Below, piece by piece: positions 10,891 to 56,515 of a DNA stretch of 64,000 nt. A program made the position numbers and the translations under genes. Source of the stretch: Armatimonadota bacterium (GTDB taxonomy: Bacteria; Armatimonadota; Zipacnadia; Zipacnadales; JABUFB01); the NCBI GenBank assembly GCA_013314775.1, contig JABUFB010000009.1:310001-374000 (forward strand), given 5' to 3'. The notes under the pieces were generated by a model. It was not told the DNA's origin and searched no databases. It saw nothing but the letters and a program-made list of their open reading frames with translations. The stretch's first letter is position 1. The number at the start of each line of letters is the position of its first letter.

Positions 10891-11658
10891 CTACATGTAC
10901 AGCCCGCCGTTTACCGAAAGCACGTGGCCGGTGATGTACTTCGCTGCATCGGATGCCAGGAACACCGCGGCGTCCGCGATTTCTTCCGCCTCACCCAGCC
11001 GGCCCATGGGTATGGATGCCAGCGTCTGCTCCAACGCCGCAGCGGGCATGGCCTGGACCATCTCCGTGTTGATAAACCCGGGCGCAATGGCGTTCACGGT
11101 GATGTTCCGCCGGGCCACTTCGCGCGCAAGGGACTTGGTGAACCCGATGAGCCCGGCCTTGCTGGCGGCGTAGTTCGCCTGGCCGATGTTCCCCGACAGC
11201 GCCACCACGGACGCGAGCGAGATGACCCGTCCGGACTGACGCTCGCGCATGTGATCAATGACTGCGCGGGTGCAGTGGAAGGCCCCTGTCAGATTCACCG
11301 CCAGCACCCGGTCCCAGGCGTCTTTGCTTAGCTTCTTCAGGGTGCTGTCGGCGGTTATACCCGCGTTATTGACCAGGATATCGAGCTTGCCGAAACGGTC
11401 GATAACCGCTTTCACCATAGCTTCCACGGCGTCGAGGTCGGTGACGTCAGCTTCCACGCAAAACGCATTGGCGCCGAGATCCCCGATCTCATCGGCCACC
11501 TGCTGCGCTTCGGCGGCGTTGTCGCGATCTGGCACCTTCACGTAATTGATGGCCACATCGCAGCCGGCCCGGGCGAAGGCGATGGCAATCGCGCGCCCTA
11601 TCCCCCGGGATGCGCCCGTGATCAGGGCGCTCTTGCCGTCGAGAGGCTTTGCCAACAT
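10891..11658 (-). CDS. SDR-family 3-oxoacyl reductase (FabG/PhaB-like)
   Basis: A 255-residue classical short-chain dehydrogenase. The cofactor motif TGASRGIG is at residues 14-21, NNAG at 97-100, and the catalytic set is Asn122, Ser150, Tyr163 and Lys167. The proline-glycine loop APGFINTEM and C-terminal SVNGGLYM match FabG/PhaB. It reduces a 3-oxoacyl thioester to the (R)-3-hydroxy form with NAD(P)H. Because it sits among CoA-handling genes rather than fab genes, acetoacetyl-CoA (PhaB role) is more likely than an acyl-ACP, but this is inference. No PHA synthase or phasin is in the window. Cytoplasmic. The preceding HBD gene is 24 bases away. Confidence 0.92.
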   Translation of the reverse strand: MLAKPLDGKSALITGASRGIGRAIAIAFARAGCDVAINYVKVPDRDNAAEAQQVADEIGDLGANAFCVEADVTDLDAVEAMVKAVIDRFGKLDILVNNAGITADSTLKKLSKDAWDRVLAVNLTGAFHCTRAVIDHMRERQSGRVISLASVVALSGNIGQANYAASKAGLIGFTKSLAREVARRNITVNAIAPGFINTEMVQAMPAAALEQTLASIPMGRLGEAEEIADAAVFLASDAAKYITGHVLSVNGGLYM

Positions 11659-11682
11659 GTCTGTAGCCGCCTTTCGCGGTGA

Positions 11683-12534
11683 TCAGTCCTCGTACTTGTA
11701 GAAACCCTCGCCGCTCTTGCGCCCCAGTTTCCCGCTCTTCACCATGTCCACGAGCACGGGTGGGACTCGGAAGCGTTCGTCGCGGGTATGATCCCACAAC
11801 GACTGGAGTAGTGCCAGGGTCACGTCCAGCCCCACCAGGTCGGCGGTGCGCAGCGGGCCCATCTTGTGCCCGAGACCCAGTTCCAGCGAGTCGTCAATCG
11901 CCTGAAGGTCAGCGCCGGCCTGCCAGGTATCGACGGCCGTCGCCACCAATGCTCCGAAAGCACGGTTCACCAGGAAACCGGGAATGTCGGGGGCAACCAC
12001 CGGCGTCTTGCCCAGGCGTTCGCACAGGGAGATGACGAAACGCGTGGTCTCCGGTGCGCTGCCTTGCCAGGGAATGACCTCCACCAGCTTCATGACCGGC
12101 ACCGGGTTGAAGAAGTGCATCCCCATGAAACGCTCGGGCCGGAAGCAGCAGGTCGCGAGTTCATGGATCGGCAGCGTGGACGTATTGCTGGTGATCACCG
12201 CATCGTGGCGAGCAAGACCGCAAATCCGCCGCAGCACCTCGGCCTTGACGTCGATGTTTTCGAAGACCGCTTCCACGATCCAATCGGCTTCGGAGATGGC
12301 TAGCTCATCGGTGTCCCAGTGGATGAGCGCTCGGGCGCCGTCAGCCTGAGCGGGCGTGAGCTTCTCACGCTCAACCGCGGTGTTCAGCGACCTGTCCAGC
12401 GCGCGCCGGCTGCGGTCCAGGGCTTCGGAACATGCATCCATCAGGGTCGCCTGGATTCCGGCCGTTGCCGCGACCTGGGCGATACCGGTGCCCATGGTCC
12501 CAGCGCCGATAATGCACATCGTCTTGACCTGCAT
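11683..12534 (-). CDS. 3-hydroxybutyryl-CoA dehydrogenase
   Basis: A 283-residue protein, the normal length for single-domain-pair HBD enzymes. The Rossmann motif GAGTMG lies at residues 10-15, the SNTS block at 116-119, and the catalytic pair is His140 (in MHFFNP) with Glu152; Asn143 follows. The C-terminal helical domain ends in LGRKSGEGFYKYED, typical of the family. It interconverts acetoacetyl-CoA and (S)-3-hydroxybutyryl-CoA with NAD(P)H. The ATG at 12534 is chosen because GGGGGAG precedes it and the Rossmann strand starts at once; reading further upstream gives no recognisable sequence. It lies 37 bases after the thiolase gene in the same operon. Confidence 0.94.
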   Translation of the reverse strand: MQVKTMCIIGAGTMGTGIAQVAATAGIQATLMDACSEALDRSRRALDRSLNTAVEREKLTPAQADGARALIHWDTDELAISEADWIVEAVFENIDVKAEVLRRICGLARHDAVITSNTSTLPIHELATCCFRPERFMGMHFFNPVPVMKLVEVIPWQGSAPETTRFVISLCERLGKTPVVAPDIPGFLVNRAFGALVATAVDTWQAGADLQAIDDSLELGLGHKMGPLRTADLVGLDVTLALLQSLWDHTRDERFRVPPVLVDMVKSGKLGRKSGEGFYKYED

Positions 12535-19211: not shown

Positions 19212-20273
19212 CTACCGGCGGCGCTGCGCGGTGATCTCCACCGCCCGCTCAAGCAGGGCGTCGGCGGCATCGGGCGACGGCGCCGAAGTGATGATGAAGA
19301 GGCCTTCAGGACGAAGCTCCCTCACGGCGACTTCCACCTCGTCATAGGCAAGGAGCGCCACCACTCCTTTGCCACCCTCCTGGATGCGCCTGAACAGGTC
19401 CAGCCAGGCAAGGCCGGACTCCGCGCCGCTGCCGGGCGTCCACTGGATCGAGTGAATCCGGGGCATAGAGAGCAGCCGCGGCAGATGCTGCAAAGCGCCG
19501 GGGCCGTCCAGGTGGTAGTTGCAGCCGTCCAGCCAGTCGCACAACTCGTCCAGTTCCGGCGCCACAAACTCCTCGAACTGTGCTGGCGACAGCATGCACG
19601 ACACATCGCTCTGGAGCGTAACGCTCCGGCGCCATGGGCACCACAGGCCCAGCCAGCCACTGGAGCCCTCCTGGTGGTCCAGCATGTCGGCGATGCGATC
19701 GTACATGATATACCAGTTGTCCAGCAGTTTGCGTAGTGACCGCTTGACCTCGGCCGGGTGGTCGATCAGATCCATCAGGAACCGCTGGGTGCCCCGCAGG
19801 AGCGGCAGGTGGTCATTGGGCTGGTGCACGTTGGGCCAGCCGGTCATCCACTTGCCCTTCGAGACCTCTGCGCAGCGTTCCACGACGGCCAGCATGCGTC
19901 TCCAGGCCCAGTCATCTTCGCACAATTCCAGCGCTGGCTCGGGCTCCCAGGAATCGATGATCGGGTCCTGCCAAACGGTCTGCTGGCTGTAGTGCAAAGG
20001 CGCGCCGTACCCGAAGCAGTAGCCCACCATGAGTGAGGTGCCGGGCAGAGATTCCCCCCCGAAGTAGGTGGCCTCGTGTCCGGCGTCGTACCTCTCGGCC
20101 ACGTAATCCGGGTCGGTCCAGTACTCCTGCCAATCCGCTGCGGGCGGGATCGGACGCGCGGGTCTCAAAGGCGCGGTCACTGCGATGCAGGGTCGATCGA
20201 TGATCTGCATGTCCCAGTAGGCGAGGAGGCGTTCGCGGGCTTCCTGCCAGTTTTGTTTGTACGCAAGCTCCAT
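19212..20273 (-). CDS. Uroporphyrinogen-decarboxylase-fold (methyltransferase-like) protein
   Basis: A 353-residue protein of the UroD/methyltransferase TIM-barrel superfamily, closest in style to proteins often named trimethylamine corrinoid protein 2-like. The opening MELAYKQNWQEARERLLAYW and the late strand motif YHLDGPGA (His254, Asp256, Gly257) are the recognisable parts. In corrinoid methyltransferases MtaA/MtbA the matching place holds a zinc-binding H-x-C-G; here the Cys is Asp. I chose the ATG at 20273, preceded by AGGAG eight bases upstream, over ATGs at 20342 and 20321. No signal peptide. Its neighbours are a secreted esterase upstream and a convergent beta-helix gene. Reaction unknown. 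Confidence 0.75.
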   Translation of the reverse strand: MELAYKQNWQEARERLLAYWDMQIIDRPCIAVTAPLRPARPIPPAADWQEYWTDPDYVAERYDAGHEATYFGGESLPGTSLMVGYCFGYGAPLHYSQQTVWQDPIIDSWEPEPALELCEDDWAWRRMLAVVERCAEVSKGKWMTGWPNVHQPNDHLPLLRGTQRFLMDLIDHPAEVKRSLRKLLDNWYIMYDRIADMLDHQEGSSGWLGLWCPWRRSVTLQSDVSCMLSPAQFEEFVAPELDELCDWLDGCNYHLDGPGALQHLPRLLSMPRIHSIQWTPGSGAESGLAWLDLFRRIQEGGKGVVALLAYDEVEVAVRELRPEGLFIITSAPSPDAADALLERAVEITAQRRR

Positions 20274-20338
20274 CGCTCGGCTCCTGAGTGCGTGCTCCGG
20301 AGGCACGGTTTCGTAATGCATGCGGCGCCTGTCCCCCA

Positions 20339-20647
20339 TCACCGCCCCGACAGCTCTTCGCGCTCTCTCAGACGGTTCGCGGCAAGCACGTACGCCCGGA
20401 CGTCGTCAAGCCTCAGCGCGCGGTCCAGCATCAGCAGTTCGTCGGAGGTCAGCGCTGGATCGGGCTTGCCGTGAAGCGATGACTGTTCACCGAATCTGGC
20501 GACGATGATAGTCCCGCACAACCCGCCATCTTGGTCCTCCCGCGCCGTGAGACTGGCGTCCATTACGGTCTTCGGGCACGGGAATGGTTCGCCAATTGGG
20601 GGTCTGTACCTGCCTGGCGGCGGCAGTAGAACTTCCAGCGTCGGACT
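20339..20647 (-). pseudogene. Open frame of 102 codons continuing directly after the esterase stop, probable gene remnant
   Basis: Immediately after the TGA of the esterase gene (20648-20650) the same frame stays open for 102 codons to a stop at 20339. The first possible ATG is internal at 20563 and has no ribosome site. The end of the frame, with SDELLMLDRALRLDDVRAY, resembles the C-terminal LamG/concanavalin-like tail of the beta-helix protein encoded at 29870-32338 (AEVLIFNRSLRFDETEAV). I read it as the decayed 3' end of a secreted LamG-type gene or a rare C-terminal extension. It occupies most of the 374-base gap at 20274-20647; the rest shows nothing. Confidence 0.35.
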
Positions 20648-21646: not shown

Positions 21647-22474
21647 TCACTCGGGCCCGGTCCAGGCACGCCGGTAGGCGGACGGACTGGCGCCACGTTT
21701 CCGCCTGAAGACGCGGCTGAAGTAGTGCACCGTTGCAAATCCGGTGCGGTCGGCCACCTGGGAGACGGTCAACCGGCCCTCACGCAGCAGTTCGGCAGCG
21801 CGGTCAAGTCGCACATCAATGACATAATCCATTGGGGGCCTTCCACAGACCGCACGGAAGATCTCGGCGAACCGCCGGGGCGACATTCCCGCTTCCCGTG
21901 CCAGTCCCTGGACAGTGAGCGGCTCGTGAAAGTGAAAATGGATATAGCGGCGAACCCGTATGATGGCCTCCTCATGCGCCGACTGCGCTCTTCCCGCAGC
22001 CGCTGCCCCTGCCGAACCCGCCAGCCTGCATACCCGCAGCAGGAACTCCTCCACCAGCAACGAACAGAGCCATTCCCAGCCAGGTTCACGGGCCGAGAAC
22101 TCATCGATGAGCTGACGCAAAGTCTCCATGAGGGCCGGGTCGCGCACGTCGCGCATAATCGCGGGGATGGTGGATAGTGCAAAGGGGATGCGGGCCCCGC
22201 GGCCGATCGAGAAACGCAACTCCCAGAGTTCCGGCTGCGTACCCGCATCGTCACGGGACGCGTGCTCTTCCCCGGGCTGGATCATGTACAGATCACGCGC
22301 CCGGACACCGTACCAGGCGTCTCCGATGCGCACCTGACCCTTTCCGCAGAGTACGTAAACCACCTGCCAGCTGCCGGGGTGCGCGTGCGGCGGGCCGATA
22401 AGCGCGGACGGGACGCAGTAGGAAGTGGCCTTTGTTACCTCAATCGGCGGTCGGGCGATGCGGGAGCCCGACAT
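21647..22474 (-). CDS. AraC-family transcriptional regulator
   Basis: A 275-residue regulator. The N-terminal half is a cupin-type sensor (GSWQVVYVLCGKGQVRIGD, then DLYMIQPGEEHA). The C-terminal 100 residues are the double helix-turn-helix, with LAREAGMSPRRFAEIFR and the second helix set ending VADRTGFATVHYFSRVFRR. It diverges from the Gfo/Idh-DegT-UroD-CE4 operon and therefore probably controls it in response to a sugar or derivative. Two direct repeats in the shared promoter region are a likely binding site. The start at 22474 has only a weak ribosome site. Cytoplasmic, DNA-binding. Confidence 0.92.
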   Translation of the reverse strand: MSGSRIARPPIEVTKATSYCVPSALIGPPHAHPGSWQVVYVLCGKGQVRIGDAWYGVRARDLYMIQPGEEHASRDDAGTQPELWELRFSIGRGARIPFALSTIPAIMRDVRDPALMETLRQLIDEFSAREPGWEWLCSLLVEEFLLRVCRLAGSAGAAAAGRAQSAHEEAIIRVRRYIHFHFHEPLTVQGLAREAGMSPRRFAEIFRAVCGRPPMDYVIDVRLDRAAELLREGRLTVSQVADRTGFATVHYFSRVFRRKRGASPSAYRRAWTGPE

Positions 22475-22587: not shown

Positions 22588-23562
22588 ATGCTCAGAGCCG
22601 CAATCGTCGGCGGGGAAACACACATCGGCGAGATTACCGCTCTCGCGGGGAGCGCAATTCAGGTGGTCGGCTCCTGCGTTCGCCCCGACCAGCGCGAATG
22701 GGCGGAGACCACTTTCGGCGCTCCCGTGTTCGATGCGGTCGACCGGCTGCTTGCGGAAACCGCGCCGGATCTGGTGGCGGTCGCAAATGAGAATGACTTG
22801 AAGGCGAGTGCAGTACTGTCGGCGCTGAGCGCCGGCTGCGATGTCATTGTGGACAAGCCCCTCGCAATCACCGCGGATGAGCAGGCGCAGATCGAGAGAT
22901 TCCTGCGGGCACACCCCGAACGCCGAATGCTCATGCTGCTGACTCTGCGAGGGAACAGCGAGTACGCAGGCCTGCGCGAAGTCGTTCGGTCGAGCAGGAT
23001 CGGTGCCCCAGCATTCGTCGAGGTCCGCATGGCGGTGCAACTCAAGCGCGCCCAGCGCCCGCCGTGGTTTCTGGATGTCAGCCGGTCCGGCGGACTGTTC
23101 CTCGACCTGCTCATCCACGGGCTCGATCAGGTGGAGTGGATCACGGGGCAGCAGATCACCGTGCTAACCGGCGTGACGGGCAACTTGGGTGCGCCGGATG
23201 ATGAGAACCTGCGGGACCATGCTGCTGTTTTCTGCGAGTTGTCCGGCGGCGGAAGCGCACTGGTGGAGGGCCAGCGCATGCTCCCGGGAACCGTGGGCTC
23301 CGACTACCGGGTCACCGTTGCAGGCACAGAAGGCTTCGCGGACTTGCGGCTTGGCAAAGGCGTCACCCTCTCATCGCCGGAAGGAGCCGACATTCCGCTG
23401 CTGAGTCTGCCCCCGGCCCGGTCCGTGGTTGCCGACTGGCTGCAGGCTCCGGACGCCGAGATGTGTCTGGTTCCCCAGTCCGCATCAATTCGGGCCAATC
23501 GTCTGGCCCTTCTCGCTACTCAGTCAGCACTCGAGCACAGGCGTATTCCCGTCGATGCATGA
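22588..23562 (+). CDS. Gfo/Idh/MocA-family NAD(P)-dependent sugar dehydrogenase
   Basis: A 324-residue oxidoreductase. The N-terminal Rossmann fold opens MLRAAIVGG; its glycine loop is unusual (GGETHIG rather than G-x-G-x-x-G). DKP with Lys90 and the later segment GGLFLDLLIHGLDQ are the family catalytic motifs. It would oxidise a ring hydroxyl of a sugar or cyclitol to a keto group, or reduce a keto sugar. I start it at the ATG at 22588 because the Rossmann strand begins there. It is the first gene of the operon and 37 bases before an aminotransferase, a pairing known from amino-sugar and aminocyclitol pathways in which dehydrogenation precedes transamination. Confidence 0.88.
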   Translation: MLRAAIVGGETHIGEITALAGSAIQVVGSCVRPDQREWAETTFGAPVFDAVDRLLAETAPDLVAVANENDLKASAVLSALSAGCDVIVDKPLAITADEQAQIERFLRAHPERRMLMLLTLRGNSEYAGLREVVRSSRIGAPAFVEVRMAVQLKRAQRPPWFLDVSRSGGLFLDLLIHGLDQVEWITGQQITVLTGVTGNLGAPDDENLRDHAAVFCELSGGGSALVEGQRMLPGTVGSDYRVTVAGTEGFADLRLGKGVTLSSPEGADIPLLSLPPARSVVADWLQAPDAEMCLVPQSASIRANRLALLATQSALEHRRIPVDA

Positions 23563-23599
23563 GCCGACAAGCGTCCGGCGCACCCAAGGAGTGTCAGAC

Positions 23600-24841
23600 A
23601 TGTCCATTGACCGTGCCCTTTTCGGATCCGCAGCCGTCGCAAATCTCCGAGGCCAATTGCCCAATCCTTTCCCGCGCATCATGGGGCCCAACGCCATGGC
23701 GTACCTGCAGGAAGTCGTGGACAGCGGTCTCACGAGCGATCTCGTGGGACGTTTCGAGCGCGCCTTCGCAGAGACCCTCGGGGTGAAGCACTGTATCGCC
23801 ACCCCAGGCTGCACTCCCGCCCTGGCGATCCTGGCGGCGGCGTTCCCCTTTGAGCCGGGCGATGAGATCATCGTCAGCCCGATCACAGACTATGGCACAA
23901 TTCAGGGGCTCTTCCGGCAGGGGTTCATCCCGGTCTTCGCCGACACCGCGCCGGGCAGCGTGAACATCAGCGCGGACACCGTGGAAGCGGCCATCACCGA
24001 CCGCACCCGGGCGATCCTGTGCGTACACAAGACCGGAATCATCTGCGACATGGATCCGATCAACGCTCTGGCCGAGCGGCATGGGCTGATCGTGTACGAG
24101 GATGCCTGCCAGGGGGTTCTCAGCACTTACAAGGGGCACCCGGCGGGCACTCTGAGCACGGCCGGCGGGTTCTCCTTCGACTCCGAAAAAACCCTGGGCT
24201 CCGATGTGGGCGGTTGCGTGGTGACCGACGATGACCAGGTCGCCGAGCGCCTGCGTTTCGTGGGACACAGCCGGGGCGGACTGCAGAAACCGGGTTACGG
24301 CCGAATCCACACCGAGCCAGGCTACGCCTTTCGGATGCCCCAGTCCACCGCTGCGATCACCCTGGCACAACTGGAGATTATTCGCGAAAATGTGGCCCGA
24401 CGGGACGAGATGGCGCGACTGCTAACCTGCTTGATCAACGAGATTCCCGGCGTGCGCGCTCTGCCGATCCCCGACTACCAGGAGGTCTACTCCTGCTGGA
24501 TGTTCGGGATTACCCTGGAACCCGGGCAGTTCTCTTGCGACACCGCGAGCTTCGCCGCGCAGCTTGCCGAAGCCGGCATCCCCGGCGCGGGCATGGGGGC
24601 GTACTATCTGATGCCCGAGGCCTGCGTCTTCCTGGACGAGTACGCGCAAGCCCGGCGCTTCCCGTTCTCACAGCCGCCGGCAAGCCGCCGGTATAGCTAC
24701 GGCGCCCACAGCACTCCGGTCGCCGCAGAGTTCCTGCAGCGGTTCATCCGCTGGAGCACTTTCTGCGAGAAATACACCGAGGAGCACTGCAGTATCGCCG
24801 CGCAGATCATCCGAGCGGTTGCAGACGCGAACCGAGCCTGA
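23600..24841 (+). CDS. DegT/DnrJ/EryC1/StrS-family PLP-dependent sugar aminotransferase
   Basis: A 413-residue fold-type I aminotransferase. Lys197 in FDSEKTLGSD is the PLP-binding lysine, Asp168 in VYEDACQG contacts the pyridine ring, and ATPGCTPAL (67-75) is the phosphate-binding loop. Members transfer an amino group, usually from glutamate or glutamine, to a keto sugar or keto-inositol. The ATG at 23600 follows AGGAG by eight bases; upstream in-frame sequence overlaps the dehydrogenase. With the preceding dehydrogenase it forms an apparent oxidation-transamination pair. The acceptor cannot be told from sequence. Confidence 0.9.
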   Translation: MSIDRALFGSAAVANLRGQLPNPFPRIMGPNAMAYLQEVVDSGLTSDLVGRFERAFAETLGVKHCIATPGCTPALAILAAAFPFEPGDEIIVSPITDYGTIQGLFRQGFIPVFADTAPGSVNISADTVEAAITDRTRAILCVHKTGIICDMDPINALAERHGLIVYEDACQGVLSTYKGHPAGTLSTAGGFSFDSEKTLGSDVGGCVVTDDDQVAERLRFVGHSRGGLQKPGYGRIHTEPGYAFRMPQSTAAITLAQLEIIRENVARRDEMARLLTCLINEIPGVRALPIPDYQEVYSCWMFGITLEPGQFSCDTASFAAQLAEAGIPGAGMGAYYLMPEACVFLDEYAQARRFPFSQPPASRRYSYGAHSTPVAAEFLQRFIRWSTFCEKYTEEHCSIAAQIIRAVADANRA

Positions 24842-24853
24842 GGAGCCAGACCC

Positions 24854-25879
24854 ATGACTTCACGCGAACGAGTTCTTGCCGCGCTCCGCCGGGAGATCCC
24901 CGACCGCGTGCCCTGGATAGAGGGCATCGTCAGCGACGAGTTGGCAACGCGTCTGTGCGGCCGGAAGATCGACGTGAACTGGGACATCGCGCCGGACGGG
25001 ACGCCGGTGACATCGGGCGCATATCTCGCCGAACAGCAGAAGATCGTCTGCCGAGCCCTGGGCAAGGACAATATCAACTACAACGCCTTCGCACCGGTAT
25101 ACGCCGGGCGCACCAGCATGCAGGGCGTGGTAATCGTTGGGGAGGGACTCATCCACACCCGGGATGACCTGCAGAAGATGCAGTTTCCGGATATAGATGC
25201 CCCCGGTTTCCTGGACAGTGCGCGGGAGTTCATCGCCCACAAAGAGGATTTCTGCGCCATCGCCTGCATCCGGCTGGGTATCGGCGCGACGCTGATGAGC
25301 ATGGGCCTGGCAGCTTTCTCCTACGCCATGGCCGACGATCCGGACTTGATCGTGGAGATTCTGGAACGCTACGCGGACTGGACAATCCGGCTCGCACCGC
25401 GACTGGCCGAAATCGGCTTCGACCTCTTCTGGGCCTTCGACGACGTAGCCTTCAACAACGGCCCCATGTTCTCGCCGGTATTCTACCGGGAAACGGTTCT
25501 GCCGATACAGCAGCGCGCGGCCGCCGCCCTGGAACTGCCTCTCATCACCCACAGCGACGGGGACATGACCCCGATCCTCGACGACTGGCTGCAGCTCGGG
25601 CAGGCGGCGATCCACCCGATCCAGCCTGACGTGATGGACATCAACGCGGTCAAGGCCAGGTACGGCAATCGGATCTGCCTGGTGGGCAATATCTTTATGG
25701 ACGACCTGGTGCACAAGCAGCCGGCGGACATCCGTCGGCAGGTGTGCGACCGCATCCAGCGCATCGGTGCCGGCGGGGGATACATTATCTCTTCCTCCAA
25801 CAGCTTGACCGCCGACATGAAGGACGAGAACGTGCGCGCCATGGCCGACGCAATCCGGGAGTTCGGCGCATACGGGTAA
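24854..25879 (+). CDS. Uroporphyrinogen-decarboxylase-fold (methyltransferase-like) protein
   Basis: A 341-residue protein starting MTSRERVLAALRREIPDRVP, the standard opening of this UroD-like subfamily. Late in the barrel THSDGDM (His233, Ser234, Asp235, Gly236) occupies the place of the zinc motif H-x-C-G of corrinoid methyltransferases, with Asp in place of Cys. The sequence ends in a glycine-rich GAGGGYIISSSNSL segment typical of the family. It lies 12 bases after the aminotransferase and 37 before the deacetylase-like gene, so it belongs to this operon. True heme-pathway UroD is unlikely in this setting. The reaction is unknown; methyl transfer or a retro-aldol type chemistry on the operon's sugar are possibilities only. 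Confidence 0.8.
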   Translation: MTSRERVLAALRREIPDRVPWIEGIVSDELATRLCGRKIDVNWDIAPDGTPVTSGAYLAEQQKIVCRALGKDNINYNAFAPVYAGRTSMQGVVIVGEGLIHTRDDLQKMQFPDIDAPGFLDSAREFIAHKEDFCAIACIRLGIGATLMSMGLAAFSYAMADDPDLIVEILERYADWTIRLAPRLAEIGFDLFWAFDDVAFNNGPMFSPVFYRETVLPIQQRAAAALELPLITHSDGDMTPILDDWLQLGQAAIHPIQPDVMDINAVKARYGNRICLVGNIFMDDLVHKQPADIRRQVCDRIQRIGAGGGYIISSSNSLTADMKDENVRAMADAIREFGAYG

Positions 25880-25916
25880 CATCGGCGTGGCGACATCCAC
25901 TGGGAGGATCCTGCAC

Positions 25917-26957
25917 ATGCCCCCGAAGACGACGCCCTGTGTCACGCCCTGCACCTGGCTCTATGACGCGCCCTTCGCGTATTCCATGACCTACGACGAG
26001 GGCACCGTCGACGCCCTGGCCAATGCACTGCCAATCCACGAGAAGTTCGGATTCCCCGGCCACGTGGACGTGGTTGCCGGGCAACTCGGCCGGCAGCGGA
26101 AGGCTTACGGCAGTTCCCTCAACGCATACGTGCACATGAGCGCGGACGAGTTGCGCTTCCTCCTGGACAAAGGCTGGGGCGTGGGCAATCACTCATGGTC
26201 TCACTACGTCTACCCGCTGCAGCCGGGGCTAGACCTCTGGCGCGAGATCGTCTGGAGCAAGTATCGTCTCGAAGACGCCCTGGACCACCCGGTGCGCATC
26301 TTCACGCTGCCGAATGACAAGTACAATTACGCGCCGGTCATCGACCTCGTGAAGCAGCACTATCTCGCCTGCGCGTACATCGATGGCGCGCCTAACCGCG
26401 AGAATTTCGACCTGCACAAGATCGGCAACTTCATGGTGGCATCGGGCGAGATCCATTCAGCGTATGACTGGAAGCGCGAATTGCTCACCCACAACCTGGA
26501 TCTGGGATTCCTGCTGGGATCATGGCTGTATGAAACCTCGCATCTGGTGATGTGGGATGTGCCGCAAGCGCACAAGTGCATCACGCCGGAAGACCTCACG
26601 CGGCGTTTTGAGAAGCTGCGGGAGATCTCGGGAGGGGCGCTGTGGGCTGCAAAACCCGACGATGTGGTGGACTACGTTCTTCTGCGGAGGGCATTGACCG
26701 TGGAGGTGATCGAGGCGGCTGAGCGAAGCCTGACTTTCGAACTGCGGGGGGACTGGCCGGTGGGCGTGATCAGCAGTCGCTTGAGCTTCCGCGTGTCGGG
26801 TCTGCCGGCGTCGAGAGAGTGCGCGGTGTCCCTCCAGCCATCTCCGCTGCCCGGCGGTGCTCTGCGGTCACAGGTCTACGGGTGCGAAAAGCGGGGCAGG
26901 GACTTCATCGTGACCCTGGACGCGGTTCCGGGAGTGAAGGTGACAGTGAGAGTCTGA
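25917..26957 (+). CDS. Polysaccharide deacetylase-like (CE4) protein
   Basis: A 346-residue protein with a CE4/NodB-like catalytic core. SMTYDEGT (residues 23-30) stands for the usual T-F-D-D-G, giving Asp27 as base and Glu28 in the place of the metal-binding Asp; GNHSWSH (90-96) gives metal ligands His92 and His96. A beta-rich C-terminal domain of about 85 residues follows. CE4 enzymes remove N- or O-acetyl groups from sugars. I prefer the ATG at 25917, nine bases after GGGAGG, to a GTG at 25887. No signal peptide is seen, so a cytoplasmic small substrate fits better than a wall polymer. Last gene of the operon. Confidence 0.78.
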   Translation: MPPKTTPCVTPCTWLYDAPFAYSMTYDEGTVDALANALPIHEKFGFPGHVDVVAGQLGRQRKAYGSSLNAYVHMSADELRFLLDKGWGVGNHSWSHYVYPLQPGLDLWREIVWSKYRLEDALDHPVRIFTLPNDKYNYAPVIDLVKQHYLACAYIDGAPNRENFDLHKIGNFMVASGEIHSAYDWKRELLTHNLDLGFLLGSWLYETSHLVMWDVPQAHKCITPEDLTRRFEKLREISGGALWAAKPDDVVDYVLLRRALTVEVIEAAERSLTFELRGDWPVGVISSRLSFRVSGLPASRECAVSLQPSPLPGGALRSQVYGCEKRGRDFIVTLDAVPGVKVTVRV

Positions 26958-26979: not shown

Positions 26980-27019
26980 CCGCCCGCCCGGAGTCTGGTT
27001 TGACTCGCCGGGCGGGCGG
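26980..27019. terminator. Strong bidirectional terminator hairpin
   Basis: CCGCCCGCCCGG (26980-26991) is perfectly complementary to CCGGGCGGGCGG (27008-27019), and GAGTC/GACTC extend the stem inward around a short loop with one bulged base. It lies in the 86-base gap between two convergent genes. There is no T tract, so it may act as a mRNA-end barrier or need Rho, but the stem is the strongest in the window. Confidence 0.75.
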
Positions 27020-27043: not shown

Positions 27044-28369
27044 CTACCAGGTCACGCTCTTGAAGGTGGGCAGATGAGGCTTGTTCTTCTTGAGCATGGC
27101 CTTGACCATGTCCTTGATCTCCTGCAGACCGAGCACCGCCGAGCAGAGCGGGTCGTAACAGCAGGCCTGGTAGACCAGTTCGGGATTGCCGGTCAGTGCG
27201 GCTTCCACAGCCATCTCTTCCACTGCAACGCTTTGAGCGACCATGGGCTGTACGCTCTGGGGAAGAGCTCCCACGTGGACAGGATTCAGGCTATTGCGGG
27301 AGGCGAAAACGGGCACCTCCACGCAGCAGCGGTCGGGTAGATTGGTGATGATCCCGGTGTTCGGCACATTCCCGTTGAACTGGAAGATCTCACCACCCAT
27401 CCAGGCATTGATGATGGACGCGGCGTACTCATGCCCGCGGCTGAGATTGAGCGGCTCGGGGTTTTCCAGCCACGCGATGATGTCCTTCTTCCAGTCCTTC
27501 TCTCGCTTGAGGTAGTGCTTGAGGATGTACGCATGCTCGCCCGGGTTCCATCCCGTGCCATCCTTGCAGAACTTTTCGATGAGGTCGGGGCGCTTGCGGA
27601 ACCATGCGTTGTATTCGGAATTGTGGCCACTGGATTCGGTGACATAGTATCCGAAGGCCAGGAACATCTCATTGCGCACCTGCTCGTGCATGTATATTTC
27701 CTTCTTTTTCATGGCCTTGCGCAGGTCCGGATAGATGTCCCGGCCCTTGTGCTCGAGCTTGAGAAAGAAGGACAGGTGGTTGATGCCCGCGCAGACATAG
27801 TCCAGTTCTGCCGGCGGGACTTTCGCCCAGTTGGCAAGCATCGCCGCGGTGCCCTGGACCGAGTGGCACAGGCCGCTGACGGCAACCTTCGTCTCGCGCT
27901 GCATGGCCCGGCAGAGCATGGCCATGGGGTTGGTGTAGTTGAGCATGACCGCGCGGGGGCAGAGCTCTTCCATGTCCTTGGCAATGCTCACCATTACGGG
28001 GATAGTGCGCAGAGCACGGAAGATCCCGGCGACGCTGCGGGTATCGCCCACGTTCATATCCACGCCGTACTTCATGGGGATCTCGATATCGTGCCGCCAG
28101 ACCTGCACGCCGCCCGCGAGAATGGTGACGAGCACGGCATCGGCTCCGTCCAGTGCCTCGCGTCGATCCATGGTGGATGTCACAGTGGCCGGGTACTTGC
28201 CTTCGTCCACGATCCGCTGCACCGCGCGGGTGCTGTACTCGAGACGCTCAGGGTCGATGTCCATGAGCGCGAGTTCCGCGTTCTCCAGCAGCGGGAATGT
28301 GAGAATGTCTTTGACCAACGTACGCGTGAAACCAAAACTCCCGGCCCCGATGAAGGCGATCTTCGGCAT
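27044..28369 (-). CDS. Glycoside hydrolase family 4 (alpha-galactosidase/alpha-glucosidase/galacturonidase type)
   Basis: A 441-residue GH4 enzyme. The NAD-binding loop IGAGSFGF starts at residue 7, MDIDP (36-40) binds the adenosine ribose, NYTNPMA (144-150) and GLCHSVQG (166-173, with Cys168-His169) hold the divalent metal with His198 in [10 protein letters not shown]4 enzymes use NAD and Mn2+ in an oxidation-elimination mechanism to cleave alpha-glycosides in the cytoplasm. The C-H-S form of the metal motif is seen in AglA/MelA-type and alpha-galacturonidase members; I cannot choose between them. The ATG at 28369 follows GGAGGT and begins the Rossmann fold. It is 175 bases after the UroD-fold gene upstream. 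Confidence 0.92.
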
Positions 28370-28544
28370 CAGACAGACCTCCGGTGTGATTGAGCTCGCG
28401 GCGAGAGGCGACCCTCCCGGCCCGCGAACGATAGCCGCGCGGTGTGAGCACTGGCACAGGCAGTGGACGATTGCGGCTGCAGCCAGCACCATACACCAAG
28501 CGGGCCGCAGAGTCCAACCTGACCTGAAGTCCAAATATCCGGCG

Positions 28545-29609
28545 CTAACCGTACTGTCCGTGTTCCAGCGCCAGGTCCATCCACAGGCAGTATGAGTCGT
28601 AACTGATGGTCGGCGGGACGGAATGGTCGGACTGGTGGATGTACCCGCCGCCGACTTTCGCCGTCTCGATCTTGCTCACCACCTCGTGCTCGATGAGGGC
28701 ACGGTCCCCGGTGGCGAGGATATCCATGTTGATATTGCCGAAGAAGCTGATGCGGTCGCCGTAAAGCGGCTTGAGTTCCCGGACATCGTTCCCCTGCCGG
28801 GCTTCGAGCGGCTCGATGCAGTCGAACCCGGCCTCGATCAGCAGGGGGATGAACTGGCGTACGTCACCGTCGCAGTGGAGGATCAGGAACATGTCGTTCT
28901 CATGGCAAAGGCGGGCGTATTCCCTGTGGTAGTCCATCATCAGCGCCCGGTAGCTCGCCGGAGAGAAGAGCATCCCGCCGCGGTAGCACAGGTCTGAGGA
29001 GAAAAGAATGCCGTCAGGTCGGTAGCCTTCTGACAGCAATTGCCGGGTCATCTGCAGAGCCAATGTCGCCTGGGCCTCGAGCATTTCCGCGAACAGATCG
29101 GGATCCATGCCCAGGGTGAGCAGCGCGTTCTCCATCCCGAGGGTGCTGATTGTCCACCAGACCGGCTCGCCGGGGCTGATGGTGCAGAAGGTCCCGGCGT
29201 CCGCGTAGGCCTGGATCGCCTGCCGCACGCCGTCACTGATGCGCGCCGGATCGGGGGCCAGCCGTTCGCGGTAACGCTCCCAGTCGGCACGGGTCTTGAT
29301 CAGGAAGTCCACCTCGCAGGGCGTCCCATACCGGGTCTTCCAGCTCTTGTGTGCCACGCCGTCGGAGTCGCGCTCGATGATCCAGTCGTCGCTCTCGTCC
29401 ACGGTTTCCTTCGGCAGGCGAAGGCTGTTGTCCAGGCCGACGTTGGCGAAACCGTCGAGATCGAACAGTTCGTGGGGCGACTTGTCCGCGGGCATTCCTT
29501 CCTGCCGCCAGCGTGCAAGGGTGTCAGGCCAGTAGGACTGCTCGCAACGCGGAACGCGGTCGGGTTCCTGTCGGCGGAGGGCAGTGCGGATGCGTTCTCG
29601 TGAGGTCAT
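28545..29609 (-). CDS. Uroporphyrinogen-decarboxylase-fold (methyltransferase-like) protein
   Basis: A 354-residue protein with the same opening as the 24854 gene ([20 protein letters not shown]). The zinc-site region reads LHCDGDV with His245, Cys246, Asp247 and Gly248, so the conserved Cys of MtaA/MtbA is again Asp, although a Cys is one place away. SFFGNINMD and [12 protein letters not shown] follow as in the family. I start at 29609 because upstream in-frame sequence runs into the repeat-rich gap and shows no family similarity. It lies upstream of the GH4 gene. Substrate unknown. Confidence 0.8.
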
Positions 29610-29766
29610 GCGGAGCCCCCGGGAAGTGATGGTGGTTATGCGGCACAGGCAATGCGGGCGAGACGGCCGCGCCACGCGAAGGGCGAAGCAACGCGAAAGG
29701 CATGGCCACCCGAAGGACGGTGAGCGGGATGCTCACCTCGTGCGCCCGTCAGGACGCTCGGATCGA

Positions 29767-55378: not shown

Positions 55379-56515
55379 ATGCCCAAAGCCGAAATGACCG
55401 GAAAGGAACGTCTGATGACTGCCGTCCGACACGAGGAGCCCGACCGGGTGCCCATCTGCCCGCGCATCAACTGGGCGTGGCTGGATCCGGACAAGAGCCA
55501 CAGGCTCGAGGAGCTTTACGCGCCGGTCATCGACCCCATGGAGATCCTCACCGGCACCACCCCCAACTATATCATCACCTACCCCGAGCAGTACGATCTG
55601 CCCGACGTGCGTGTGGACACAACGCGATACCAGGAGGACGAATACCAGGTGGTGGAGCGGGTCTTTCACACGCCTGCCGGCAAGCTCTCGGACCGCACGA
55701 AAATCCCGCCATCAGGCCGGGAATATGGGATGTCGCCGAACCCGATCAAGACCGAGTATCTTGTGAAGAGCCGCGAGGACATTCCTGCGCTGCGGTACAT
55801 TCTGCCGGAGATCGAAGGCAACTACGACCATGCAGTGGCGCGAATGCGAGAACTCGGGGACCGCGGGGTGGTCATGGTCAATGTGTACAGTGAGCTCTGC
55901 CACCAGGCGGGCGATGTGCGGGACATGCAGGACATCATGATGGACTACTACCTCGATCGGCCGTTCTTCGATGAGCTGCTGGGACTGTTCCAGGAGCGCA
56001 CCATGGCCGAGACGAAAGCCGTCATGGAGGCCGGGGTGGAGTGGGTCTTCGCAAACTGCTACTACAACAGCATCTCGGCGGGATGGTCGCCGGCGATCTT
56101 CGAGGAGGTATTCGTACCGCACATCACCGCTCAGGTGGACCTCGTGCACAGCTACGGCGGATATGTGGACTACTATGACGATGGGCACCTGTCGAAGAGC
56201 ATGGGGCTTATCGCGGACTGCGGGGTGGATGTGCTGGAGACGTGTACCCCGCCACCCGTGTGCGATTTCGACCTGCAGGAGGCGAAGGCGACCATCGGGG
56301 AGAAGGTGACACTGAAGGGCTATGTGGACCTGCTCTACGTGGTGAAGCGGGGCACGCCGGAGTTGGTGGAGCAGACTGTGGCGCAAGCGATGGAGATTGC
56401 CAAGCCCGGAGGCGGGTTCATCATCGGCAGCAGCGACAGCTTCCGCGAGGGCACTCCGCCCGAGAATATACACGCATACTTCCAGAGTTGCCTGAAGTAT
56501 GGGGTGTATGACTAG
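55379..56515 (+). CDS. Uroporphyrinogen-decarboxylase-fold (methyltransferase-like) protein
   Basis: A 378-residue member of the UroD-like superfamily (opening MTGKERLMTAVRHEEPDRVP after six residues). The metal-site region reads YYDDGHL (Tyr266, Asp267, Asp268, Gly269, His270) rather than H-x-C-G, the most divergent of the four copies here. LKGYVDLLY and GGGFIIGSSDSF are the usual late barrel strands. It is 59 bases after the GntR gene and 14 bases before the heparinase-like gene, so it is probably part of that operon. Substrate unknown. Confidence 0.8.
   Translation: MPKAEMTGKERLMTAVRHEEPDRVPICPRINWAWLDPDKSHRLEELYAPVIDPMEILTGTTPNYIITYPEQYDLPDVRVDTTRYQEDEYQVVERVFHTPAGKLSDRTKIPPSGREYGMSPNPIKTEYLVKSREDIPALRYILPEIEGNYDHAVARMRELGDRGVVMVNVYSELCHQAGDVRDMQDIMMDYYLDRPFFDELLGLFQERTMAETKAVMEAGVEWVFANCYYNSISAGWSPAIFEEVFVPHITAQVDLVHSYGGYVDYYDDGHLSKSMGLIADCGVDVLETCTPPPVCDFDLQEAKATIGEKVTLKGYVDLLYVVKRGTPELVEQTVAQAMEIAKPGGGFIIGSSDSFREGTPPENIHAYFQSCLKYGVYD

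Follow-up and report, generated by a model that had tools for sequence, protein, structure and literature searches.

The window analysed here, a 64,000-nucleotide stretch of contig JABUFB010000009.1, belongs to an Armatimonadota genome (G000) of 6.1 Mb in 37 contigs and carries a compact operon for a Gfo/Idh/MocA-type oxidoreductase, a DegT-type aminotransferase, a UroD-superfamily protein and a CE4-type hydrolase (Table 1). The first-pass annotation had described four closely packed genes on one strand with a divergent AraC gene, an arrangement that the open reading frames and Pfam matches bear out. The spacing is indeed tight, but with the best-supported starts the gaps measure 37, 12 and 37 bases instead of the 12 to 75 given there, and 113 bases separate the operon from the AraC gene. 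For the CE4 gene, an ATG at 25917 with GGAGG upstream is preferred over a less likely GTG at 25887. The terminator claimed after the last gene corresponds to a strong hairpin of 16 pairs (fold -39.1 kcal/mol, z -4.3), which is likely a terminator but not a canonical one, since a sequence scan found no T-run behind it. No sigma-70-like promoter for the operon was found by sequence scan. The AraC protein shares 46% identity with the AraC at the corresponding place in another genome (locus L040 of G193), and among the loci compared the exact gene order of the operon is confined to the window.

Table 1. Genes and features of the operon and its immediate surroundings (positions in the window)
Feature	Position	Strand	Evidence and remarks
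AraC-family regulator	21647..22474	-	Pfam HTH_18 and AraC_binding
Gfo/Idh/MocA-type oxidoreductase	22588..23562	+	Pfam; DKP and GGLFLDLLIHGLD motifs; module B
DegT-type aminotransferase dependent on pyridoxal phosphate (PLP)	23600..24841	+	Pfam, 232.6 bits; core gene
UroD-superfamily protein	24854..25879	+	Pfam URO-D; His233-Asp235-Asn316 site; module B; putative O-demethylating methyltransferase
CE4/NodB-type hydrolase	25917..26957	+	Pfam, polysaccharide-deacetylase type; divergent paralogue of core CE4
Strong hairpin, probable terminator without T-run	26980..27019	+	Fold z -4.3; between convergent genes

The main result of the comparison is a conserved three-gene core consisting of DegT, a CE4-type hydrolase and an isochorismatase-like protein, IsoX. 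A DegT-family profile fetched 80 loci from other genomes, whose titles span about ten phyla and include Armatimonadetes, Latescibacterota, Gemmatimonadetes, Hydrogenedentota, Planctomycetota/Phycisphaerae, Caldilineaceae/Chloroflexi, Lentisphaerae, Kiritimatiellae, Omnitrophota and others; these bin labels are the depositors' own and some appear doubtful. Genes around DegT were called with a simple codon-position heuristic, and absences are therefore soft. Of 81 loci, 58 have a CE4-family gene and 37 have IsoX within five genes of DegT, in every case on the same strand as DegT; when whole loci are considered, 66 of 85 contain CE4, in either of two types, and 39 contain IsoX. In the fetched loci, CE4 and IsoX occur together no more often than their individual frequencies would predict: each tracks DegT, not the other.

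When the neighbourhoods of the 18 DegT orthologues of the order were equally trimmed, IsoX was present in 12, CE4 in nine, UroD in six and Gfo/Idh in five. As controls, we inspected the surroundings of 12 DegT paralogues and 30 UroD paralogues (20 equally trimmed and 10 with wider flanks), and none contained another member of the set. Since the DegT and UroD orthologues keep overlapping company in other genomes (at 59-92% identity for UroD) and the paralogue neighbourhoods hold no such partners, chance clustering of four common families is ruled out. The first-pass annotation had proposed that the operon be judged by its conservation in relatives, and this check spoke for it, since orthologues recur together. 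The four genes themselves are nevertheless not the conserved unit: Gfo/Idh and UroD are additions to the core, the CE4 gene of the window is related to the core CE4 but has diverged from it, and IsoX lies on another contig. In G000 the latter is found at C8:980038-980811, which rules out its loss from the genome, and adjoins a canonical CE4 gene, which shares 69% identity with its L043 counterpart.

Membership of the aminotransferase in the DegT/DnrJ/EryC1/StrS family is clear (232.6 bits against a Pfam cut-off of 19.8). The catalytic PLP lysine and the aspartate are retained in 80 of 80 sequences and the glutamine in 79. Among the 41 genomes of the order, 18 carry orthologues at 65-79% identity, after which full-length matches drop to about 37% or less; overall, 31 genomes in a sample of 201 from the phylum carry one, and conservation across phyla is at about 62-81% identity. 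None of the named DegT equivalogs (ArnB, PseC, WecE, DesI and others) reached its NCBIfam cut-off, the best being ArnB with 154 bits against 631. Among solved structures, perosamine synthases come closest; inosose aminotransferases rank lower, and NtdA is a distant match. A window protein without Pfam match (19212-20342) falls into one cluster with the product of a gene (10938-12035) that lies two places away from a DegT orthologue in L109.

The CE4 protein of the window is 72% identical to its counterpart in L126, 62% to that in L116 and 55% to that in L144. It has no recognisable signal peptide and ends in a beta-rich part. The TYDE motif (with the aspartate base, and glutamate for the second aspartate), the HSxxH pair and the late histidine are kept in 58-59 of 59 sequences, and the structural model (pLDDT 92.7) matches CE4 folds with Z up to 21, which places it in the CE4/NodB type. 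Its closest folds are a Bacteroides ovatus deacetylase (4dwe), a viral turret domain, and PuuE allantoinase with its relatives, followed by the peptidoglycan deacetylases. IsoX (L041:8238-9050 and 34 relatives) retains the catalytic cysteine in 35 of 35 sequences but not the Asp-Lys-Cys triad of isochorismatase-type hydrolases, having histidine at the aspartate position and no lysine.

The two remaining genes of the operon, Gfo/Idh and UroD, form what we call module B. Across the phylum sample, Gfo/Idh orthologues were found at 58-65% identity in seven further genomes. Five genomes of its order carry UroD orthologues at 81-92% identity, and in another class the identity is 63%; the next matches fall to 40%, and paralogues mostly lie at 29-35%. 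Gfo/Idh occurs in seven and UroD in eight of 85 loci, and all seven Gfo/Idh loci also contain UroD. Module B is often accompanied by a further CE4 gene and by a subtilase-like gene, and it joins the core in Armatimonadota and in one Kiritimatiellae bin. For instance, L040, L041, L042 and L093 share the order Gfo/Idh, DegT, IsoX, UroD, followed further on in L041 by the subtilase-like gene and the same CE4 (72% identity), while L116 and L144 hold the module B genes, the subtilase-like gene and CE4 in a different order. In the subtilase-like proteins (L041:2443-3822, L039:5872-7350), GGCMA stands in place of the GTSMA of subtilisin, with cysteine at the position of the catalytic serine. An arginase-family gene (L093:10211-10633) follows the UroD orthologue in G205.

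Gfo/Idh-UroD and DegT are located on different contigs in G122, and Gfo/Idh-CE4-S8 stands apart from DegT in G011; module B is therefore separable. The same two genomes agree with the idea that DegT/CE4/IsoX and Gfo/Idh/UroD are unrelated pathways united by operon shuffling in polysaccharide-degrading Armatimonadota. We consider this rather unlikely, given that L116 and L144 reunite the same genes in shuffled order and that all seven genomes with UroD carry DegT, compared with 31 of 201 overall (p about 1e-6) and 18 of 41 within the order (7/7; p about 0.001), with p values that ignore relatedness.

The UroD protein is a member of its superfamily by sequence (PF01208, 84.5 bits against a cut-off of 23.9) and by structure (VIA Z 29.8-30.8 over about 320 residues). 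Its model (pLDDT 92) has the UroD fold, and the first Foldseek match is the Methanosarcina mazei methyltransferase 4ay7 (E 4e-17, Z 29.8); VIA Z values are nearly equal for UroD structures and for 4ay7. Residues H233, D235 and N316 are invariant in 29 relatives. At this site 4ay7 has His-Cys-Cys, and the histidine of the HemE GHG motif (4wsh) aligns with Asn316. A HemE identity is ruled out by this replacement and by an N-terminus reading DRVPWIEGIV in place of the RQAGRY segment. The protein shares the UroD-superfamily fold (4ay7) with MtaA/CmuA and with O-demethylases of the VdmB/OdmB type, but an MtaA/CmuA thiol methyltransferase is ruled out by the His-Asp-Asn site and by the NCBIfam score (62.7 against 235.4 bits); the operon has no corrinoid gene. 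UroD-type S-methyltransferases carry His-Cys-Cys, whereas in O-methyltransferases the cysteines are replaced by carboxylates or non-ligands (PMC10418091). On these residues, the window protein resembles the latter and is a putative O-demethylase.

Altogether 79 UroD-family matches were counted in G000, so that a UroD gene beside some other gene is unremarkable on its own. The site is very varied among 50 UroD proteins of this genome. The window itself has a second UroD gene (28545-29675, with an HCDG...SDHS site) adjoining a GH4 glycosidase gene (27044-28534), and a third at 55379-56515. G000 has one PF02607 corrinoid protein, encoded directly beside its single corrinoid activase, RACo (C9:41456-42521; L184:7055-9668), and the activase is present in all 41 genomes of the order. 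Such a single pair permits, without proving, corrinoid-dependent demethylation by UroD proteins.

The neighbours of the core bear on the direction of the pathway. In Caldilineaceae, a solute-binding protein (L133:4526-5854) and two sugar-type ABC permeases are located just upstream of DegT, and a LacI-type regulator occurs in four core loci. Other neighbours include CN-hydrolases (12 loci), creatininases (eight), C45 acylases, M20 peptidases, amidohydrolases, APH-type kinases and MR/MLE enolases. The 25 most frequent of the 111 families in 94 operon neighbours include neither nucleotide-sugar nor glycosyltransferase families, which disfavours an O-antigen or nucleotide-sugar cluster, as the first-pass annotation had supposed. 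That annotation had also left synthesis and breakdown equally possible; the sugar importers, the LacI and AraC regulators and the varied C-N hydrolases beside the core lead us to favour catabolism. The changing hydrolases may represent different ways to open different conjugates of one common nitrogen-bearing part.

A biosynthetic pathway to an amino sugar or aminocyclitol natural product would use the same enzymes otherwise, with Gfo/Idh oxidising, DegT transaminating, CE4 deacylating and UroD transferring a methyl group. Gfo/Idh together with DegT is a known way to kanosamine and streptidine-type cyclitols, the matches of DegT to perosamine synthase and inosose aminotransferases fit such a role, and three Latescibacterota loci have methyltransferase, PhyH and APH genes next to the core. 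We nevertheless regard biosynthesis as unlikely, because the recurrent neighbours listed are importers and hydrolases instead of glycosyltransferase or nucleotide-sugar families.

Our preferred reading, put forward tentatively as one possibility, is an inducible cytoplasmic catabolic pathway for a small N-acylated, possibly O-methylated, amino sugar-like or cyclitol-like compound. After uptake of this compound, CE4-type enzymes would hydrolyse the amide, and UroD would remove the O-methyl group by way of the cell's single corrinoid protein and activase. Gfo/Idh could then oxidise the freed hydroxyl to a ketone, and DegT would remove or move the amino group by transamination, letting the carbon skeleton enter sugar metabolism. 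Both the order of these steps and the substrate are what we infer from the enzyme families. The amino-sugar or aminocyclitol pathway of the first-pass annotation thus had the right parts and a plausible compound class; its gene set was incomplete, and the class itself is still conjectural.

Several observations weigh against this catabolic proposal. Most core loci lack orthologues of Gfo/Idh and UroD, so these two need not act on the same molecule as DegT, and in 12 of 85 loci neither CE4 nor IsoX is within reach. The corrinoid protein adjoins no UroD gene. Transamination by DegT is reversible and can run either way. No gene of the set has a characterised orthologue, with all named-family scores far under the NCBIfam cut-offs. 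The substrate of CE4 may not be an N-acyl sugar, because PuuE allantoinase and PuuE-like chains are among its closest folds (Z 18.6, 18.2 and 17.8), and the peptidase-like neighbours S8, M14, M20 and C45 would also fit a peptide-like substrate.

The last two points lead to a different catabolic substrate, a peptide-like, hydantoin-like or ureido compound, with CE4 as a PuuE-type allantoinase or imidase, IsoX and its neighbours cutting further C-N bonds, and DegT taking the last amino group. Consistent with this are the CN_hydrolase, creatininase, M20, C45 acylase and amidohydrolase neighbours, the arginase-family gene seen once, and the joint occurrence of a class V aminotransferase, M20 and CE4 in Caldilineaceae loci. 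On the other hand, the solved DegT structures nearest to this one have keto-sugars or inososes as substrates, and a polyol is better suited to Gfo/Idh and sugar-type ABC importers; we therefore judge such a substrate somewhat unlikely.

Comparison with known systems revealed partial likenesses. The kanosamine operon ntdABC pairs a Gfo/Idh enzyme, NtdC, with a DegT aminotransferase, NtdA, as does the window; however, NtdA is only a distant match, the window set is without a phosphatase, and ntd is without CE4, IsoX and UroD. ArnB and ArnD of lipid A modification are likewise a DegT and CE4 deformylase pair, with ArnB the best NCBIfam match and ArnD among the fold matches, but the ArnB score is far from its cut-off, and ArnA, ArnC and ArnT were not noticed near the core. 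In rhizopine catabolism, MocA acts as an oxidoreductase and MocDEF as a demethylase. The system that works most alike is this breakdown of rhizopine (3-O-methyl-scyllo-inosamine), whose synthesis and catabolism involve mosB and mocRABCDEF (PMC10107442); the system shares an aminotransferase (MosB), a Gfo/Idh oxidoreductase (MocA) and demethylation of an O-methylated aminocyclitol. We do not claim membership in it: the window has AraC instead of MocR, UroD instead of the MocDEF demethylase, and CE4 and IsoX are extra. MocR, the MocB binding protein and MocDEF were not noticed near the core, although no search was aimed at them.

The gene set is real and conserved, is built from known enzyme families and seems to be undescribed. 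Among the papers searched, none combined DegT, isochorismatase and polysaccharide deacetylase as a gene cluster, or named three members of the group DegT, polysaccharide deacetylase, uroporphyrinogen decarboxylase and isochorismatase, and the Zipacnadia paper makes no mention of uroporphyrinogen or amino sugar. It is quite improbable, in our estimate, that the set represents an undescribed route by which some ten uncultured phyla degrade O-methylated N-acylated amino sugars or aminocyclitols with oxygen-independent demethylation; UroD would then belong to a group of about 79 substrate-specific O-demethylases, all feeding one corrinoid protein and its activase. The strong conservation of DegT across phyla suggests that its substrate is a nitrogen-bearing compound widespread in lakes, groundwater, sediments and sponges, and its UroD partner offers a concrete entry to the role of the dozens of UroD paralogues in Armatimonadota.

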